The position numbers were made by a program, and so were the translations under genes. Shown piece by piece: positions 36,148-47,215 of a DNA stretch of 64,000 nt; the stretch's first letter is position 1, and the number at the start of each line of letters is the position of its first letter. The notes under the pieces were generated by a model that did not search any database, had not been told where the DNA came from, and saw nothing but the letters and a program-made list of their open reading frames with translations. Origin of the DNA: Rhodopila globiformis (GTDB lineage Bacteria; Pseudomonadota; Alphaproteobacteria; Acetobacterales; Acetobacteraceae); contig NZ_NHRY01000239.1 of NCBI RefSeq assembly GCF_002937115.1, forward strand, positions 1 to 64,000. The letters are read 5' to 3'.

Positions 36148-36260
36148 GGGAGAATCTTTGGGGGTCGCGGCGCGGAATGCAAGCGGAGAAGTTGTTACGG
36201 ATCGCCATTGCCCATGATATTGTCGTCTTGGAAACGGCTGCGGCCACGGAAGCGCGATTC

Positions 36261-36509
36261 ATGCCGACAATTGCCATCGTGGACGGGGTCAGGATCATGA
36301 TGTTTTACAATGACCACAATCCGCCGCATTTTCATGCAAGATTGGGCGGTGATGAGGCGCTGGTGGCGATCGGCAACCTGAGCGTAGTCCGAGGTTCCCT
36401 ACCTCAGGCTAAACTGAGCCATATCCTGGCCTGGGCTCGGGACCATCGGGACGCATTGGCGCTCAACTGGATCAGGTGCCAGAATAACGAGGAACCGCAA
36501 GGGATTTAG
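36261..36509 (+). CDS. DUF4160-family small protein
   Basis: An 82-residue protein starting MPTIAIVDGVRIMMFYNDHN, then PPHFHARLGGDEALV: the DUF4160 signature (FYxDHxPPHFH). The start at 36261 fits the family N-terminus better than upstream codons. It ends two bases before a DUF2442 gene, the standard pairing. Such pairs have been suggested to be toxin-antitoxin-like, but no biochemical role is established to my knowledge. Confidence 0.85.
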   Translation: MPTIAIVDGVRIMMFYNDHNPPHFHARLGGDEALVAIGNLSVVRGSLPQAKLSHILAWARDHRDALALNWIRCQNNEEPQGI

Positions 36510-36511
36510 AA

Positions 36512-36850
36512 ATGCCCCAGGTACTGGAGAATATCATCGTATCCGCCGTGCCCGAGCCATCCGTGCGTCGTGTTTTCCTGACCTGGGCTAATGGCGAGAC
36601 GACGACGCACAACCTGCAGCACCTCTCAGACAAGGGCGTCTTTCGAGCACTCCGCGATCCGACATTTTTCGCGCGGGTCCGTGTCGGCGATCATGGACGC
36701 AGCCTGGAATGGCCTGGTGAACTTGACCTATGCGCGGATGCTCTCTGGTTCGAAGCCCATCCGTTGGACGCACCCGACTCGGCGATTGCCGCTACGAATG
36801 ACTACGTTGCTAAGCATGGGTTGCCCGGAGAGGACTATATGCCCGTGTGA
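36512..36850 (+). CDS. DUF2442-family protein
   Basis: A 112-residue protein with VRRVFLTWANGETTTHNLQH and DLCADALWFEAHPLD, consistent with DUF2442, whose members sit directly after DUF4160 genes. Spacing of two bases implies cotranscription and coupling. The pair stands divergent from the helicase gene. Confidence 0.8.
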   Translation: MPQVLENIIVSAVPEPSVRRVFLTWANGETTTHNLQHLSDKGVFRALRDPTFFARVRVGDHGRSLEWPGELDLCADALWFEAHPLDAPDSAIAATNDYVAKHGLPGEDYMPV

Positions 36851-40729: not shown

Positions 40730-40818
40730 CCGGGCGGCGCCGGACTGCCGGCGCGCTTCCTGTGGTGCCCCCGAGTGGCGCACTGTGACGCACCAACACC
40801 TTCCATGCAAAGATGGCT

Positions 40819-43800
40819 TCAAAAGACCTCGAAGGTGACACTCATCGGCGCCTGCCCCTCATGCCGGAGATAGCGCACTCTGCCGTGATAGACGAACGGT
40901 GCGGCCTTGCCGCCTTCCAGCTTGCCATCGCGCACGAACAGATGCAGCGTGATGCCGAGCTTCTCATGGCCGATGATTTCCCGCCCCCGGCTGCTCGTCG
41001 GCGTTGTGGCATTCTGGCTCTGCCAGTGGAACGTCGTCTCGTCGATCCAATGATCGACATAGCGATGCGCCTCCGCCTTCCCTTGCTTGTTCAACGTCAC
41101 CAGCAGGACATGCGCCTTCGGCGCCCGCAATACCACGTGGCCTGAATTCCAACTGCCAGGGTTGAATGTTTCCCCGAACAGCGGCGGGATGTCCTCGCGC
41201 ATGAACGCCTGCCCCACCGCGAGGTCGAGCGGATCGACGATCGCACGGAAGCGGGCGAAGGTGCGCATCTCTCCGGTCGCTTCCAGATCGGCGTAGTCGG
41301 GATTGTTGGCCTTCAGGATGTAGCGTCCGTCGCGGGTCTTGGTGACCACCCGCAGCAGATACTGGCTGTCACCGGTCACGTCCTGCCGCTCGACCGCCAT
41401 GATTTTGCCTGTGATCGACCCGGCACTCGTGGAACTGACCAGCTCCAGCAGCAGATAGTCGCCGTCTCGGATTGGCGTCTTGCCGCCGTTCATCGAATTG
41501 CCCGACGCCCGCGCAATGAAATGCCGCGCCGGGTCCAGGTTGCCGTAGCCGGGGCCAAGAGTGCGATGCTCCTCCGCGTCGGCATAGCCGGTCTTGAAGT
41601 GCCCGCAGGCGATGGGGAGATTTGGGAAATAGGCAAGCTCCACCCGGTTCGGGCGGTTGCGATACAGCGGAATGATTTCGGCCGACGCTGCCGCTTTCGG
41701 CTGGCGGGCTTCGTAGGTGGCGAGACGGTAGTCGGCGATTTCCTGCACCAGACTGGCGAGTGTATCGGCGGTCTCGGCAGGGACGGCGAAGGCCGGTACG
41801 AAGCGGTCCTCCTCCAACCTGAAGAAGCGCGGCGCGGTGCCGTCCACGAAGCCGCCAATCCAGGCGTTGACCGGATTGCCGCGCCAGTAGCGCTGCCATT
41901 GCGACGACGCGCCGTCCTCTTCGCTGGTGGCGAAGTCGTCGGAGAGATCGCCGAGCAGAGGCCGCCGCCGCTGCAACACCTCCCAGGAGCGTTGTGCCAG
42001 GTCGGCAAGCCTTGGCGCAGTGCGCCAGCCGTCGAGTTCCTGGAACGCTTCGAGCAGCACCATCTTGAACGACTTCACCAGTCGGGTCTTCTCCAGCTCG
42101 GTCAGGAACGTGGCGTGTGCCCGTGCAGTCTCCGCCTCGTCGCCGGACAGGTCTCCCATTTCGGCGACCAGCGCGAACCAGTGACCGTATTGCTGCTGCA
42201 TCCGTGGCATGTTGGCGCCGGAGCGGTAGAACTCCGTCAGCGTCGGCCGCCGGCCGAGCACCGCCTTCAGTGCCTCGTAGTCCGACCTGGTGCCATCGGA
42301 ATCCAACACCTTGAGGAAGTCGATCAGCCGCAGATCGAAGTTGATGAAACAGCCCGGCGGCAGCTCCAGCCGCCCCTCCTCCACTCGGCGCGCGAAGGCG
42401 GCGAGCTGGCGATAGGTGTCGCCGGCCTGCGCCAACGCCTGCGGCTTGTGCAGGAAACTGTGATGGTTGCCGATGAAGTCGAGCACCACCAGCCGTTCCT
42501 TGCCCTCGGCCCGACGCAGGCCGCGGCCGAGCTGTTGCAGGAAGAGTATTTTCGACTCGGTCGGCCGCAGCATCAGCACGGTGTCGATCGCCGGCAGGTC
42601 GACGCCTTCATTGAACAGGTCGACCGAGAAGATCACCGCCAGCCGCCCCGCCGAAAGCTGGTCCAGCGCCTCGCTTCGCCCGAGCGTGGAGCCGGCATAG
42701 ACCGCCTCGGCGCTCACCCCCTGCCGGCGGAACTGATCGGCCATGAACTCGGCGTGCCTGACCGAGACGCAGAACGCCAGCGTGCGCGTCTGCCGATGGT
42801 CCCGCCACTGCGCGAGGGCGTGCCGGGCACGTGCCAGCGTGGCGAGCTTGTTGGTCAACTGCTCCGGATCGAACCGTCCGCTGCGCCAGGGGATTTCGCG
42901 GTAATCCACCGTCTCGTCCCAGATGCCGTAATAGTGGAACGGCGCCAGCAACCCAGCGGTGACGCCTTCGAACAGGGTACGGGTGAAGACGAGATTGTCG
43001 TCGCACAGGGAGAGGATGTCCGACTGGTCGGTGCGATCCGGCGTCGCGGTCAGGCCGATGAGGAAATGCGGCGCGAAGTGAGCCAGCACGCGCCGGTAAG
43101 TCGGCGCGGCAGCGTGGTGGAATTCATCGACGACGATGTAGTCGAAATGCTGCGGCGGAAAGCGTTCGAGATGCCGGTTCCGCCCAAGCGTCTGCACTGA
43201 AGCGCACAGCACGTCGACTTCCCCGTCCCGCAGCTTGCCGGTGTAGAAGCCGACGCGGCTGTGCGGGCGGATGCGCAGGAACGTCGCCGCCGCCTGATGC
43301 AGGATTTCCTCCCGGTGCGCGATGAACAGCACGCGCCGTGCGGCGATCTGCTCGGCGTCGAAGGCGGCCAGCCACGTCTTGCCGAGGCCCGTGGCCAGCA
43401 CGACCAGGCCGCGCCGGTAGCCCTGCGCACGGGTCGCCGCGAGAGCGTTGAGCGCGTCTGCCTGGATGGGGGAAGGCTCGGGCGGTGGGTCAAGCTCATT
43501 CGTTCCGGGGGCGATGGCGCGCGCCGGCGGTACGCGACGGCGCTCATAGGCTTCGATCCAGGCATCGGTGAGCAGGCAGGTCCGGCGATCATGGAACAGG
43601 TCCTCGAAGCGGGCACGCGCCTCCAGGAAGCCAGGGTCACCCGGATATTCGATGCGGTAATTCCACTCCAATCCATCGGTCAGCGCCATGCGGCTGATAT
43701 TGCTGGAGCCGATGAACGCCGTGCCGCGCCATTCGCCTTGCTCGTCGATCCCGGCAAACAGGTAAGCCTTCAGGTGGAAGCTGCCGGTCCCAGCCTCGAA

Positions 43801-44685
43801 GACGCGAACATGCGCGCCCTTCTCTTGCAGAAGGAGCAGCAGGCGCAAGGCATCCGGGTCGGTGACATCGAGATAATCGCTGGTCAGCACGCGCAATCGC
43901 GCCGGCGGCCGCGTGCGCTGCTCATCGTGGCCGAGGGCTGCGTGGAGATCGTCGATCAGCAAGCGGAGCCCGGTGGTCTTGATGAAGGCAACCGCGAAGT
44001 CGATCTCGCCGGCCTGCGCCATGGCGGCGGAAAGCTGCGGCCGGAACGGGTTGGCCTGTTCGCCGGTGACCACTTTGTCGGCCGCAGCCGGATTGCGCCG
44101 GATGATGGCGTTGAGCCAGGCCTCCTGCCGATCCGGCCGCGCATCCTGGGTCGTCCAGCACGCGATGGCGGCAATATCCGGGAGAGCCTGGAGCCAGGTG
44201 CGCAGCCGTTCCTCGGTGGCATCGGTGAAATGGCGGCCGTCCTTGATCCTTTCGCCGTCGCCGAGCTTGAAACTGAGATAGAACGCTCCGGCCGGCTTCA
44301 GCGCCGCCCACAATCGCGCAAGGCAATCCGGAATCGCCACCTCGGGCAGGTGCAGCAGACTGGCGCAAGCCCAGATGCCGTCGAACATCGGCGGCCGGTG
44401 GAAGTCCTCGAAGCGCAGCACCGCGACGGCCTGGCCGATCAACGCGGACGCCCGCGCGGCGAGTTCAGTCGAGGCATCGAACGCCTGGACGCGATAGCCG
44501 CGGCCTATGAAGGCTTTCGCATCCCGTCCGGAGCCACACCCGGCATCCAGCACCAGGCCACCATGGGGAACCCAGGCAAGGAACCGGTCGTGCAGCGGCG
44601 TCATGTCGACGCCGACCGTGCCGGCGACAAACACATCTGCGTTCTGGTCGTAGTAGCGGAGAGTCTCGCCGGCAGCCGTTGACAT
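40819..44685 (-). CDS. Fusion of SAM methyltransferase, PLD nuclease, SF2 helicase and DUF3427 (SauUSI-like restriction protein)
   Basis: A single 1288-residue protein. Order: class I SAM methyltransferase-like domain (about 1-165; VLDAGCGSGRDAKAF at 45-59), PLD-type nuclease (about 205-375; HLK at 304-306 and GSSNIS at 326-331), SF2 helicase (ATGLGKT 431-437, DEFH 520-523, TATP 546-549, QQLGRGLRR 717-725), then DUF3427 (about 760-1288) including an S24/LexA-like segment with SGNSMNGG (Ser1064). PLD-helicase-DUF3427 is the layout of SauUSI, a type IV enzyme that cuts 5-methyl/hydroxymethylcytosine DNA. The methyltransferase fusion is extra and lacks DNA-methylase DPPY/SPPY motifs. It stands alone, convergent with eipB. 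Confidence 0.88.
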   Translation of the reverse strand: MSTAAGETLRYYDQNADVFVAGTVGVDMTPLHDRFLAWVPHGGLVLDAGCGSGRDAKAFIGRGYRVQAFDASTELAARASALIGQAVAVLRFEDFHRPPMFDGIWACASLLHLPEVAIPDCLARLWAALKPAGAFYLSFKLGDGERIKDGRHFTDATEERLRTWLQALPDIAAIACWTTQDARPDRQEAWLNAIIRRNPAAADKVVTGEQANPFRPQLSAAMAQAGEIDFAVAFIKTTGLRLLIDDLHAALGHDEQRTRPPARLRVLTSDYLDVTDPDALRLLLLLQEKGAHVRVFEAGTGSFHLKAYLFAGIDEQGEWRGTAFIGSSNISRMALTDGLEWNYRIEYPGDPGFLEARARFEDLFHDRRTCLLTDAWIEAYERRRVPPARAIAPGTNELDPPPEPSPIQADALNALAATRAQGYRRGLVVLATGLGKTWLAAFDAEQIAARRVLFIAHREEILHQAAATFLRIRPHSRVGFYTGKLRDGEVDVLCASVQTLGRNRHLERFPPQHFDYIVVDEFHHAAAPTYRRVLAHFAPHFLIGLTATPDRTDQSDILSLCDDNLVFTRTLFEGVTAGLLAPFHYYGIWDETVDYREIPWRSGRFDPEQLTNKLATLARARHALAQWRDHRQTRTLAFCVSVRHAEFMADQFRRQGVSAEAVYAGSTLGRSEALDQLSAGRLAVIFSVDLFNEGVDLPAIDTVLMLRPTESKILFLQQLGRGLRRAEGKERLVVLDFIGNHHSFLHKPQALAQAGDTYRQLAAFARRVEEGRLELPPGCFINFDLRLIDFLKVLDSDGTRSDYEALKAVLGRRPTLTEFYRSGANMPRMQQQYGHWFALVAEMGDLSGDEAETARAHATFLTELEKTRLVKSFKMVLLEAFQELDGWRTAPRLADLAQRSWEVLQRRRPLLGDLSDDFATSEEDGASSQWQRYWRGNPVNAWIGGFVDGTAPRFFRLEEDRFVPAFAVPAETADTLASLVQEIADYRLATYEARQPKAAASAEIIPLYRNRPNRVELAYFPNLPIACGHFKTGYADAEEHRTLGPGYGNLDPARHFIARASGNSMNGGKTPIRDGDYLLLELVSSTSAGSITGKIMAVERQDVTGDSQYLLRVVTKTRDGRYILKANNPDYADLEATGEMRTFARFRAIVDPLDLAVGQAFMREDIPPLFGETFNPGSWNSGHVVLRAPKAHVLLVTLNKQGKAEAHRYVDHWIDETTFHWQSQNATTPTSSRGREIIGHEKLGITLHLFVRDGKLEGGKAAPFVYHGRVRYLRHEGQAPMSVTFEVF

Positions 44686-45034
44686 GCCGCAATCTTATCA
44701 GTTTGCACGCATGTCGATAGCGTCCCGGATATGCGCTGTCTTCTCCTCCAGACCAGTACCTGTGTCCACCGGAGCAGGGCATGCCTGTTCACGTCCGAAG
44801 AAGGCGCACACTGGACCTGACCGCTGAAGCCGCCAAGACCGACCTGTCCTGGCGGCATCGGGCGATGTTCGTGCTTACCGAGGCGACATGGTATGTCGCT
44901 TCGGCCGCGCCAGGAGCCGCCTCACGATGGATCCGAGCTTGAAGGCCAGCTTTGCATCCACGGATCCCGGGCCTCGGAAACATTCGCCAGGAAACCAGGA
45001 CGATGCATCAAGGAAATGCCGGGCGCTGGGTTCT
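44686..45034. other. Gap upstream of the restriction-fusion gene
   Basis: About 350 bases. It must hold the promoter of the minus-strand fusion gene. I see no repeat, hairpin or clear promoter. Confidence 0.35.
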
Positions 45035-45262
45035 TTACCGATCCGCCTCGTCCGTCGTCGTCGGCTCCTGCTCGGCGTGATGCGCCGTCTCAGCGCCATG
45101 ACGATCAGAAGTTGGCATGCCGGTCGGCCTGTCGCCGTCCTTCTGCTGCAACGGAGCCGGCGGCTCGGCTCCGGTCACGCCGGAATTGGCCGGCGGATCA
45201 CTGGCCGGGAAAGTATCTTCCAGGTTCTTGTCCTGGTCGCGATCCGAACGCTCGCGGGTCAT
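45035..45262 (-). CDS. Small hydrophilic protein with DTFPASDPPAN motif
   Basis: A 75-residue, highly charged and probably disordered protein. The core EDTFPASDPPANSG is a motif seen in many small alphaproteobacterial proteins of unknown role. AAGGGA precedes the ATG at 45262. The C-terminus is rich in His, Glu and Asp. No function can be given. Confidence 0.7.
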   Translation of the reverse strand: MTRERSDRDQDKNLEDTFPASDPPANSGVTGAEPPAPLQQKDGDRPTGMPTSDRHGAETAHHAEQEPTTTDEADR

Positions 45263-45620
45263 GGCAATCCCTTTCATCCGGCGCGGATGCCGGTCGTGCC
45301 TGAACGCCACACGGCGGCCAGAGTTCACGCGCACACGACACCGCCGGTGAGGCCCGGACCTGCCAGGCTGGCCGCATGAGCGATCGCATCCGTCCCCGCA
45401 TGCTGACTCCATCCTCCAACACCACGCCCGCGCCGGCCAGCACCGCCATGGTCGCCGGCCCGCAATTCCGTTCCGCAAGGATCGCCCGGTTGACCGCTCC
45501 CAACCGAGCGGGACATACCGGCGCGCAGAGTGCAGACGACTGTTTCCCGATAGCTTATGATCCGAGGGGTTCTCCGCCAAAGAACCGGGCAGCGTTGCCG
45601 CCAGTGGTGCAGAAGACAAG
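45263..45620. other. Divergent gap ahead of the PAS_5/PYP pair
   Basis: 358 bases between the small hydrophilic gene and the PAS_5 gene. It should hold promoters in both directions. No repeat family from elsewhere in the window is seen. Confidence 0.35.
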
Positions 45621-46235
45621 ATGGCGTTGATTTTGCTTTGCCTTGTGCTGTCGTGGCTGGCTGTTCTGGCGCTGCTGTTCTCCGGCGGTGCCAGACCGTC
45701 AACAGCGCCGATGCGGCAGGCAGGCCCGGAGGGCAACGACAACGCCGATGATCACCGGCTGGTTTCCCGGCTGCGGAGCCATAGGCTGCTGATGGCGTAC
45801 CTGTTCTGGAAGGCGGCCAGGCGCGGCAACAGGCCGCCGTGCCTTGCCGACGTCCAATGGCAGGGCGCACTGGATGATCCACACATGTTCACCGTCGCCG
45901 TCGAAAATCCGGACCTGCAGCCGCCCCGTTTTCGCTATACCCGGATCGGCTCCGCGCTCGAACAGCGGCTCGGCCGCGGGCTTGCCGGCCTGCCGACTGG
46001 CGCGCATCCAGGCAACGACTATGTCGGGTCGCTGGAAGGCGCCTATCGCAGATGTGCCCGGACTTTGACGCCCAGCTATGAATACGCGAACTACAATTTC
46101 GGCGACGGCGCTCCGATAACCTTCGAGCGCCTGATCCTGCCTCTCGCCGGCATGAACGGACGCATCACCCATTTGATCGGCGTCGTGCTGTTCAGCGAGC
46201 AGGAGAAAAGGCCCAATGGAAGCGAAGGCTCCTGA
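45621..46235 (+). CDS. PAS_5-domain protein with N-terminal membrane anchor
   Basis: A 204-residue protein. An N-terminal hydrophobic helix (LILLCLVLSWLAVLALLF) anchors it; residues about 70-195 match the PAS_5 pattern (LADVQWQGALDDPHMFTV, RFRYTRIGSALEQRLGRGL, FERLILPLAGMNGRITHLIG). PAS_5 proteins in alphaproteobacteria are mostly uncharacterised sensors. Its last 20 bases overlap the start of the PYP-like gene, so the two are coupled and may work as a pair, one membrane-bound and one soluble. Confidence 0.8.
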   Translation: MALILLCLVLSWLAVLALLFSGGARPSTAPMRQAGPEGNDNADDHRLVSRLRSHRLLMAYLFWKAARRGNRPPCLADVQWQGALDDPHMFTVAVENPDLQPPRFRYTRIGSALEQRLGRGLAGLPTGAHPGNDYVGSLEGAYRRCARTLTPSYEYANYNFGDGAPITFERLILPLAGMNGRITHLIGVVLFSEQEKRPNGSEGS

Positions 46236-46593
46236 TTTCCACGACCCCGCTCTCGCATCGATCGTCGAGACGCTGCCGCCCGCCGTCGTGGATGCGCTTC
46301 CGTATGGGGCCATCCGGCTGGACCGGGAAGGGCGGGTCACATTTTACAGCGAAACGGAGCGCCGGTTGTCCGGCTACGACCAGCCGACGGTCGCGCGGTC
46401 GTTCTTCACCGAGATTGCCCCGTGCATGGACAACGCCCAGTTCCGCGGGCGGATCGACAAGGCTCTGGCGGCGGGGACGCTCGACATCACCTTCAGCTTC
46501 GTCGGGGACTTCAACGATCCGGACAGGGAACTGGATGTGCGGGTGCAGTCTGCCGCGGGCGGAGGATGCTGGATCTTTCTGCGCCGGCTATAG
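46216..46593 (+). CDS. Photoactive yellow protein homologue (PAS fold)
   Basis: A 125-residue protein, the same length as Halorhodospira PYP and alignable throughout. The chromophore cysteine is kept: Cys70 in FFTEIAPCMDN matches Cys69 in the FFKDVAPCTDS context. Tyr44 and Glu48, equivalent to Tyr42 and Glu46 that hold the p-coumaryl phenolate, are present; Thr50 is Ser52 and Arg52 is Tyr54. PYP is a blue-light receptor whose photocycle starts with chromophore isomerisation. Genes for chromophore supply (tyrosine ammonia-lyase, p-coumaroyl-CoA ligase) are not in this window. AGGAG lies ten bases before the ATG. Confidence 0.85.
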   Translation: MEAKAPDFHDPALASIVETLPPAVVDALPYGAIRLDREGRVTFYSETERRLSGYDQPTVARSFFTEIAPCMDNAQFRGRIDKALAAGTLDITFSFVGDFNDPDRELDVRVQSAAGGGCWIFLRRL

Positions 46594-46700
46594 CACCGCG
46601 ACGGCTCCGCTCCCGCCGCAACCGCGGCATGCCCCGCCGCTCCGGTCACACGCCTGCGCCGCACCTGATTCGTGGGGACAGTGCGCGAGAACCGGATGGA

Positions 46701-47078
46701 TCAGTGGATCGTCACGGACTCCGGGCGAGCGGTGCCGGCGCAAAACGCCGGTTGGCGGCAAATGACGTCGAGGACGTCCCGCAGCGACGCATAGATCCCG
46801 ATCTCGGTTATTTCGTCCCAGTGCACCTGGTCCAGACGGAAGCCATAGCCTTCCCGGTTGACCACGAAGCTTGGGCCATTCAGATCCTCGCCCCCGTCCG
46901 GCAGCAGGATCAGGTTCGCCTCATCCGCGCAGAAACCCTGCAACTCCACGGTCCATCCAGGCGCGACCTCGGTCATCACCGACTGGAAAAAGGCCTGGTC
47001 CGCCATGCCGAGCGGCGGTGGCGGCACGGCGACGGCCGGTTCCTGGCTGGTCTGGTCGCTCGATCTCTTGTAATACAT
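46701..47078 (-). CDS. Hypothetical soluble protein, 125 residues
   Basis: Begins MYYKRSSDQTSQEP with a Pro-rich stretch, then a compact domain (VELQGFCADEANLILLPDGG, GYGFRLDQVHWDEITEIG). GGAG six bases before ATG 47078 supports translation. It converges on the PYP gene. I recognise no family and the function is unknown. Confidence 0.6.
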   Translation of the reverse strand: MYYKRSSDQTSQEPAVAVPPPPLGMADQAFFQSVMTEVAPGWTVELQGFCADEANLILLPDGGEDLNGPSFVVNREGYGFRLDQVHWDEITEIGIYASLRDVLDVICRQPAFCAGTARPESVTIH

Positions 47079-47215
47079 TGCAATCTCCGGATGTGCGCTG
47101 GAGTCGCGCCCAAGCCAAATCGAGAAGTGCATTCTTGTTGCACACGGAGCAAACAAAGAAAAGTATCTTTTGTCGATTTTCGGATCAAAAATGCGACCAG
47201 CCGCCCCATGACCCC

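Follow-up and report, generated by a model that had tools for sequence, protein, structure and literature searches.

SauUSI, a type IV enzyme from Staphylococcus aureus (PDB 7clg), is built from a PLD nuclease with an HxK motif, an SF2 ATPase, a coupler and an SRA-like target-recognition domain. The coupler is described for SauUSI in PMC7913695; Tyr831, Asp858 and Trp868 are residues of the 5mC/5hmC pocket, and in the model of SauUSI it is Tyr831 that touches the methyl group. The same domain order was found in a protein encoded in the window, i.e. the 64,000-nucleotide stretch of Rhodopila globiformis DNA analyzed here, and its likeness to SauUSI, proposed in the initial annotation, was supported by an alignment to 7clg with residues 230–756 as the best-matching stretch (E 1e-80). 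The best PADLOC match for the whole protein was mREase_IV, and only the nuclease half has a close PADLOC model.

Architecture of the protein

The protein is encoded on the minus strand, which had previously been left unstated, by a single unbroken frame of 1288 residues, as claimed. In 100 sequences of 64 kb generated by a dinucleotide-Markov model, no stop-free run exceeded 704 codons, far short of this frame, and many homologues align to it over nearly its full length with 57–73% identity; together these results rule out an artefact of GC-rich DNA. From N to C terminus, the protein comprises a class I SAM methyltransferase (MTase), a PLD nuclease, an SF2 helicase, a helical coupler, an S24 domain and an SRA-like DUF3427 domain. 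Methyltransf_25, ResIII, Helicase_C, Peptidase_S24 and DUF3427 were the Pfam families above cut-off, and PLDc_2 scored 22.9 bits, below its cut-off of 27. All motifs reported earlier were recovered, namely VLDAGCGSGRD (residues 45–55) in the MTase, HLK (304–306) and GSSN (326–329), the Walker A motif GLGKT (K436) and DEFHH (520–524) of the helicase, and SGNSM (S1064); the helicase further contains QQLGRGLR (717–724). Residue 50, listed in the initial annotation as a glycine, is a cysteine, the motif glycines being residues 49, 51 and 53. The S24-like SGNSM segment is indeed present but lies outside DUF3427, in a separate domain between the coupler and the SRA-like end. The latter matched 7clg and SUVH6 in Foldseek and 7clg by profile (E 1e-6), and its pocket retains D1211 and W1221 and has an invariant histidine, His1183, at the position of Tyr831 in SauUSI. 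We are close to certain of this anatomy (Table 1), as predicted from sequence and structural models.

Table 1 Predicted features of the protein (P0001), with positions in the window.
Feature	Position	Strand	Basis
Whole ORF, 1288 aa	40819..44685	-	Frame and homologues
SAM-dependent MTase domain, residues 1-200	44086..44685	-	Pfam Methyltransf_25; 3e23; model
PLD-type nuclease domain, residues 206-395	43501..44070	-	Pfam PLDc_2 (sub-threshold); SauUSI alignment
SF2 helicase/translocase, residues 400-760	42406..43488	-	Pfam ResIII, Helicase_C; SauUSI 7clg
Helical coupler, residues 761-1007	41665..42405	-	Helices in predicted model
S24 (LexA/UmuD/lambda CI type) domain, residues about 1008-1152	41230..41664	-	Pfam Peptidase_S24; Foldseek
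Candidate self-cleavage bond Cys1027-Gly1028	41602..41607	-	Alignment with UmuD C24-G25, LexA A84-G85
Ser1064	41494..41496	-	Aligned with LexA S119 / UmuD S60
Arg1112 at catalytic Lys position	41350..41352	-	Aligned with LexA K156 / UmuD K97
SRA-like target-recognition domain (DUF3427 C-terminal half), residues 1151-1288	40822..41235	-	Pfam DUF3427; Foldseek; profile

The S24 domain

The S24 domain was recognized by Pfam Peptidase_S24 (32 bits), by Foldseek matches to 2hnf (E 2e-6), LexA and UmuD, and by sequence similarity to UmuD (E 0.005). Both the Cys-Gly cleavage bond and the serine were conserved in 45 of 45 S24 copies (42 distinct cores, as three same-core pairs are included; fragments below 150 bits were excluded), and in all 45 the position of the catalytic lysine was occupied by an arginine, Arg1112 in the present protein. 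This placement was the same in three MAFFT modes. Lys1116 is also invariant, but was rejected as the catalytic lysine since Arg1112 aligned to the lysines of LexA and UmuD in each mode. The loop directly after the candidate bond, residues 1028–1037, was modelled with a pLDDT below 50. The suggestion that the S24 part allows self-cleavage after DNA damage is incompletely supported: the fold and the cleavage site make it plausible, whereas the invariable replacement of the lysine, overlooked in the initial annotation, and the low model confidence after the bond make it doubtful, and cleavage may not occur. The invariant Ser-Arg site raises a clear question about the chemistry of this domain.

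The arginine would also suit a non-cleaving S24 module, which would bind DNA or a partner and substitute for a target-recognition domain. Consistent with such a role, S24 is the C-terminal domain, at the position of the SauUSI reader, in a clade with the MTase on a separate gene (see below) as well as in HNH-S24 and restriction-like helicase proteins. We regard this as a possibility of some weight, although the equally invariant Cys-Gly bond and serine are hard to explain without chemistry at this site.

The methyltransferase domain

The MTase domain was modelled with a pLDDT of 96, and its best match by fold was PDB 3e23, the stand-alone MTase RPA2492 with bound SAM (sequence E 2e-28; 33% identity in the structural alignment). 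Across 73 distinct MTase sequences, the SAM-site residues D47, G49, G51, R54, D55 and D70 were kept in all 73. The site is intact as judged by residue conservation, with no sign of the lost SAM binding that had been named beforehand as a refuting result. Outside the SAM site, K140 and R151 were invariant (73/73) and R183 and R186 nearly so (72/73 and 71/73).

DNA amino-MTases carry an NPPY-type motif and 5mC MTases a PCQ motif, in both cases together with a recognition domain. The present domain instead has the signature DGIWACASLLH (residues 102–112) at the motif-IV position, and consists of a 200-residue Rossmann domain only, lacking both the DNA-MTase catalytic motif and a target-recognition domain. 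There were no DNA MTases among the 50 fold matches listed, and the top matches are enzymes with small molecules, protein N-termini or tRNA as their substrates. Motifs and folds together rule out a classical DNA MTase and agree with the initial annotation, which had described an added MTase lacking DNA-methylase motifs; they also count against a role in marking self DNA.

The nearest folds are those of RPA2492, which is of unknown function, toxoflavin N1-MTase and other small-molecule MTases including DhpI. They would fit an enzyme that senses metabolism or makes or removes a small-molecule signal (the SAM level, or a methylated or phage-made nucleotide), a change of which would free the nuclease with no mark on DNA. 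An alarm nucleotide, one of the substrates raised in the initial annotation, is conceivable. The conserved K140, R151, R183 and R186 may suit a small, phosphate-bearing substrate, and 14 of 30 MTases from Bacillota (the phylum of an Anaeroplasma genome, G398) had no adjoining nuclease gene. We nevertheless consider this somewhat unlikely, as a signal alone would leave unexplained the tracking of S24 with the MTase, and their joint absence from one group of DNA-modification readers, described in the following section.

Distribution and partners of the methyltransferase

Among 398 genomes of the same phylum as the window (Pseudomonadota), the MTase was fused in two of 20 DUF3427 loci and encoded just upstream in one, and 17 of the 20 had neither the MTase in the ORF nor S24; one of the 20 loci (G086) was truncated by its contig start. 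This count had been set beforehand as a test, and the MTase is accordingly not a general feature of DUF3427 proteins. The fusion is uncommon but not unique, as another 39 loci encoded MTase and S24 within one ORF. In Vibrio/Pseudoalteromonas-type genomes, and in many marine gammaproteobacteria, the MTase and a PLD-helicase-S24 protein were instead encoded by adjoining separate genes, and this split clade has kept MTase and S24 in the absence of DUF3427. Elsewhere the same MTase stands as a separate gene beside an HNH protein or a restriction-like helicase, and the system is therefore not essentially a single-gene one, as had been supposed.

The MTase family was recurrently partnered with three unrelated nuclease types: PLD-helicases, restriction-like helicases, with an N-terminal domain that was PD-(D/E)XK-like as judged by eye, and HNH proteins. 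Using HNH and restriction-like-helicase profiles derived from loci found in this analysis, a same-strand nuclease gene was detected no more than 800 bases away at 9/10 MTase loci from Pseudomonadota and 16/30 from Bacillota, three of the latter partners (L121, L131 and L142) being broken or remnants. The control, comprising the 20 next-best MTase loci (121–147 bits), gave none. Six still lower-scoring MTases (78–82 bits), outside the control and picked for long frames, low scores or a DUF3427 neighbour, all had one. The places examined were 36 of 72 in one search and 30 of 33 in another. As judged by sequence, the MTase is thus the constant part across relatives and the nuclease is interchangeable.

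S24 occurs on all three nuclease types, i.e. on PLD-helicases, on HNH proteins (L149 and L282) and, truncated, on a restriction-like helicase (L153). Since some homologue searches used MTase peptides, a count of 70/73 from the survey that also gave the 39 one-ORF loci is not independent, and the S24-driven searches provide the fair test of the association: the MTase was fused or adjoining in 7/7 and 20/21 genomes, or 23/24 given four shared genomes, the sole exception being a 73-residue S24 remnant. The reverse does not hold, as the MTase was often found without S24, both with nucleases of Bacillota and in Vibrio (L050 and L066). In the helicase tree, a group of four sequences (support 100/100) lacks both MTase and S24 inside a clade of 31 (100/99), the rest of which carries both apart from one frameshifted and one interrupted case. 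The inner forks placing this group have support of only 81/85 and 80/87, and if it were basal its lack of S24 could be ancestral. In Motilimonas pumila, a transposase-like gene interrupts the MTase (L064 and L310, on one contig) next to an intact nuclease ORF, and the MTase of L033 is frameshifted; expression aside, these broken copies fit poorly with an indispensable antidote. Taken together, it is highly probable that MTase, nuclease and S24 form a functional unit.

The same distribution bears on whether the protein could be an ordinary SauUSI-like type IV enzyme cutting modified-cytosine DNA, with MTase and S24 as passengers or stabilizing domains. The retained D1211 and W1221 and the 17 DUF3427 loci free of both domains would agree with this, but MTase and S24 show no variation at their active-site positions, the methyl-contacting tyrosine of the SauUSI model is replaced by histidine, and the split clade keeps the supposed passengers while dropping DUF3427, the reverse of what passengers would do; we consider it improbable. 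Methylation of the partner protein by the MTase (e.g. at the invariant Cys1027 or a basic S24 residue), thereby setting the switch, would account for S24 occurring without MTase only as a remnant and for protein N-terminal MTases among the near folds, but is very improbable given that the MTase also accompanies nucleases devoid of S24 and pairs with three unrelated nuclease types.

No close homologue was found in 23 genomes of the same genus, and the ORF lies in a slot of variable content, flanked by EipB and the holA/leuS block; relatives were also located on plasmids and viral contigs. The best reading of these sequence data is a mobile, restriction-like defence protein that was probably acquired horizontally.

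Proposed mechanism

A role in defence is likely. We tentatively favour a horizontally acquired restriction-like defence protein assembled from parts of a modular system, in which the MTase would act on a common target and S24 would be an MTase-dependent switch. Because the nucleases served by this one MTase are of three non-homologous kinds, the substrate of the MTase should be something common to all versions rather than the nuclease. A nucleic acid or nucleotide seems most likely, whose methylation would decide whether DNA is self, and such a self-marking step by the MTase is conceivable rather than probable. The nuclease-translocase would bind DNA in the wrong state, via the SRA-like domain where present, and then shred it as SauUSI does. 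S24 would be an on/off switch required only alongside the MTase; at its simplest, it would shut the protein off in response to DNA damage by releasing or hiding the C-terminal part, although we put forward this link to damage with considerable reserve. The lineage that dropped the MTase would have become a plain reader of modified DNA, with the switch gone too. If true, restriction alleviation would be encoded in the restriction protein itself, and we know of no earlier restriction-like nuclease that has a LexA-type switch as one of its domains.

It is rather unlikely, taken in full, that these proteins represent a new type of defence comprising a small non-DNA-type MTase and interchangeable nucleases, with an MTase-tied Ser-Arg S24 through which DNA damage would turn the nuclease off (or on). 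Were it so, one conserved MTase would serve three unrelated DNA-cutting engines, and a methyl mark or signal would be the heart of the system.

Comparison with known systems

In restriction-modification types I–III, DISARM and MADS, an MTase likewise stands beside a nuclease or helicase, but the MTase described here is without DNA-MTase motifs or a recognition domain. The MADS defence system is a mad1-mad8 operon. In a PADLOC scan of this protein only, the match covering the MTase domain was mad2 (35 bits), and membership in MADS was judged unlikely on the basis of that scan, this being the single match, to the MTase. The accessible portions of the open literature, subscription papers and bioRxiv aside (including PMC7159879, PMC3874153, PMC7641849, PMC12839542, PMC12458937, PMC7101444, PMC12707154 and PMC7913695), gave no description of an MTase-nuclease-S24 fusion, an S24 module on a nuclease or an MTase-HNH pair. 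The pairing of one MTase with three unrelated DNA cutters points to a modular defence system that is apparently undescribed so far.

RPA2492 shares the fold and the SAM site with the present MTase, but the lower-scoring MTases taken to be of the RPA2492 kind had no adjoining nuclease gene (0/20). LexA, UmuD and lambda CI (peptidase family S24) have the fold, the position of the cleavage loop and the serine in common with the S24 domain, and the Cys-Gly bond is as in UmuD; the S24 domains described here differ in being attached to nucleases and in having an arginine in place of the catalytic lysine. Compared with SauUSI, the protein carries an extra N-terminal MTase and an extra S24 domain in addition to the altered pocket residue. 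SauUSI-type enzymes act without a partner MTase, whereas here the MTase is fused to the nuclease, and in S24-bearing relatives it is fused or adjacent.

Domain architecture of the 1288-residue protein

The gene at 40819-44685 encodes an uninterrupted 1288-residue frame, which is not a chance occurrence since 100 Markov sequences modelled on the window's composition contained no stop-free run longer than 704 codons, and its homologues are 57–73% identical over almost the full length. The fusion of a class I SAM methyltransferase (MTase) to a SauUSI-like protein, as described in the initial annotation, was right in substance, with the gene on the minus strand; the motifs listed there were found at the residues given, except that residue 50 is a cysteine and not a glycine. 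The solved structure nearest in sequence is that of the type IV enzyme SauUSI (E 1e-80, best stretch 230-756); the MTase part is nearest to RPA2492 (E 2e-28). The window's protein belongs to the SauUSI type, of which it is an uncommon variant.

Domain order of the 1288-residue protein
Domain	Residues	Location	Basis
MTase	1-200	minus strand ORF	sequence/structure comparison
PLD nuclease	206-395	minus strand ORF	sequence/structure comparison
SF2 helicase	400-760	minus strand ORF	sequence/structure comparison
Helical coupler	761-1007	minus strand ORF	sequence/structure comparison
S24	1008-1152	minus strand ORF	sequence/structure comparison
SRA-like DUF3427	1151-1288	minus strand ORF	sequence/structure comparison

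In the window's phylum, 398 genomes were surveyed and 20 had a DUF3427 locus over the cut-off. The MTase was in the same ORF in two (G000, G174) and encoded immediately upstream in one (G015), while 17 had neither an in-ORF MTase nor S24 (with G086 truncated at its contig start, and G044 and G292 short). Forty genomes were also searched for a same-genus comparison and all gave some match; in the 23 that were others of the genus the best was helicase-only (E 3e-33) and the remainder weaker, and thus the window's gene was acquired. Six relatives that were opened have aspS and/or EipB followed by a variable stretch, readable across in four (L272, L274, L275, L276) to holA, lptE and/or leuS. The corresponding slot in the window, from EipB to holA (40730-47215), is occupied in same-genus relatives by different small genes or none. 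Elsewhere in the window (36177-36850, plus strand), DUF4160 and DUF2442 genes lie in tandem, 2 bases apart, a layout like that of small toxin-antitoxin-like pairs.

Conservation of the individual domains

The window's MTase domain was aligned with 72 others, taken from fetched loci matching over 170 residues or more; 45 of these sequences were realigned. Residues D47, G49, G51, R54, D55, D70, W105, H112, K140, R151, D181, W190 and N192 were each conserved in 73/73 sequences, R183 in 72 and R186 in 71. The predicted structure (mean pLDDT 96) was closest to RPA2492 with SAM and toxoflavin N1-methyltransferase, the following matches including N-terminal protein methyltransferases and DhpI, and no DNA methyltransferase was found among the best 50 of 1802 fold matches. 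From these invariant residues and fold matches, the MTase looks like a putative working enzyme and not a DNA methyltransferase of a known kind.

A model of residues 738-1288 (mean pLDDT 79, pTM 0.51, residues 1028-1037 below 50) had as its top Foldseek match a lambda repressor fragment including the cleavage site (E 2e-6), with LexA next and UmuD lower; the S24 sequence profile matched UmuD (E 0.005), and this match put the cleavage site and the serine in register. In three MAFFT modes, Cys1027-Gly1028 aligned with the cleavage bond of E. coli UmuD, E. coli LexA and lambda CI and Ser1064 with their nucleophile, whereas Arg1112 occupied the position of the lysine that serves them as general base. 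To our knowledge, S24 members characterised so far use lysine there. C1027, G1028, S1064, R1112 and K1116 were each present in 45/45 S24 copies over 150 bits (42 distinct cores). Judged from these alignments the site is under strong constraint, yet with arginine at the lysine position, and self-cleavage should not be assumed; PMC7101444 terms the Ser-Lys dyad highly conserved.

The DUF3427 end matched the SauUSI SRA domain (E 1e-6), whose D858 and W868 are, in this alignment, retained as D1211 and W1221 (invariant, 15/15). In contrast, the position of SauUSI Tyr831, proposed as a methyl-group contact in section 25 of PMC7913695, is an invariant His1183, and the base-modification preference is likely altered relative to SauUSI.

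A modular family with three nuclease partners

The modular family around the 1288-residue protein is a more interesting result than the fusion itself. PADLOC, NCBIfam and Pfam scans named it only piecewise, and no description was found in our literature search. In a genome-contig scan of 80 loci, the fused form occurred in Rhodocyclales, Burkholderiales, Marinobacter, Alcanivorax and Paramagnetospirillum, among others, and in Pseudoalteromonas, Vibrio, Parashewanella and relatives a separate MTase gene lay directly 5' of a PLD-helicase-S24 protein without DUF3427. At two loci of Vibrio (L050, L066), the gene after the MTase encodes an 818-836-residue PLD-helicase lacking both S24 and DUF3427. 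The MTase family also adjoins an HNH nuclease family bearing a common N-terminal [ST]YK motif, and a helicase protein whose N-terminal domain is PD-(D/E)XK-like by eye; Pfam names only the helicase and S24 of this protein. A distant MTase subfamily (approx. 80 bits) had the same three partner types at 6/6 loci, including three MTase-HNH fusions.

Nuclease partner genes were counted when they lay on the MTase's strand and no more than 800 bases away; they were found at 9/10 Pseudomonadota and 16/30 Bacillota MTase loci (three of these 16 broken or remnant), and at 0/20 loci of the next-best MTases used as control. Nine of eleven MTase-only plasmid records were opened: six had the MTase and an HNH gene side by side on one strand, one had an HNH gene two genes upstream that the HNH profile does not match, and two had one nearby on the opposite strand. 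Of ten viral-contig loci, six had the HNH family (one with S24, L282), one a PLD-helicase (L286) and three no partner gene in reach.

Several further arrangements were observed. The distant subfamily is fused straight to the HNH family at five loci (L189, L190, L191, L223, L225), and this further kind of fusion twice adjoins a SauUSI-like DUF3427 gene, both among the 17 loci of the DUF3427 survey (L223, same strand; L225, opposite). An MTase-HNH pair lies directly 5' of type I-F cas1/cas3 genes on a plasmid of Acinetobacter lwoffii (L214), and a faecal viral scaffold (L217, MT836554) has PLD-helicase, MTase and HNH genes consecutively, with two nuclease types around one MTase. At L019, L054, L056, L058, L060, L062 and L314, another SauUSI-like protein, with neither MTase nor S24, is encoded a few kb from the MTase/S24 system.

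S24 tracks the MTase

The fair basis for this association is the S24-driven searches, covering 398 genomes of the window's phylum and 325 of the order of genome G162, with four genomes shared. The S24 was found in seven of the former, always with a fused or adjacent MTase, and in 21 of the latter, 20 with an MTase (pooled, 23/24 genomes). The one S24 found without an MTase is an isolated 73-residue remnant beside a SauUSI-like gene (L323, 2731-2952). Within the 20, one MTase is interrupted, in Motilimonas pumila, by a transposase-like gene (IS256-type by eye; L064 5983-7884 and L310 5664-7565, one contig), despite which the PLD-helicase-S24 ORF is open; S24 is split in G216 and L322. An S24-driven viral scan gave one locus, on the contig of L282. 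Other routes gave 73 loci, of which 39 carry MTase and S24 in a shared ORF (in L032 and L033 with a damaged MTase part), 31 have the MTase upstream (some via frameshift or rearrangement) and three are cut by a contig end.

In a helicase tree of 54 rows, a four-row alphaproteobacterial-type group lacking both MTase and S24 (support 100/100) was nested in a 31-row clade (100/99) otherwise carrying both, the exceptions being a frameshifted locus (L004) and one with an interrupted MTase (L064). This is explained most simply by loss of the two together. The forks just above this group have support of only 81/85 and 80/87; if the group were basal, the absence of S24 could be ancestral, because the next outgroup row (L232) has an MTase and no S24.

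Proposed mechanism

That a single MTase pairs with nucleases of three unrelated kinds speaks for a substrate which all three versions have in common, and against the nuclease as that substrate. The model that we favour over its alternatives, although we hold it to be less likely than not, is that the MTase sets a self/non-self state on nucleic acid or nucleotides and that the nuclease would attack DNA in the wrong state; S24 may be a switch sparing the host when marking fails, e.g. during DNA damage. Counting against it are Arg1112 at the lysine position, an MTase without a DNA-methyltransferase motif, the intact nuclease beside the interrupted MTase in Motilimonas pumila, and the 14/30 Bacillota MTases without an adjoining partner gene. 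The tie of S24 to the MTase and its absence from plain modified-DNA readers fit a host-protecting switch. Such a switch would have the same role as restriction alleviation in type I enzymes, described in PMC12707154 as proceeding through ClpX-dependent proteolysis.
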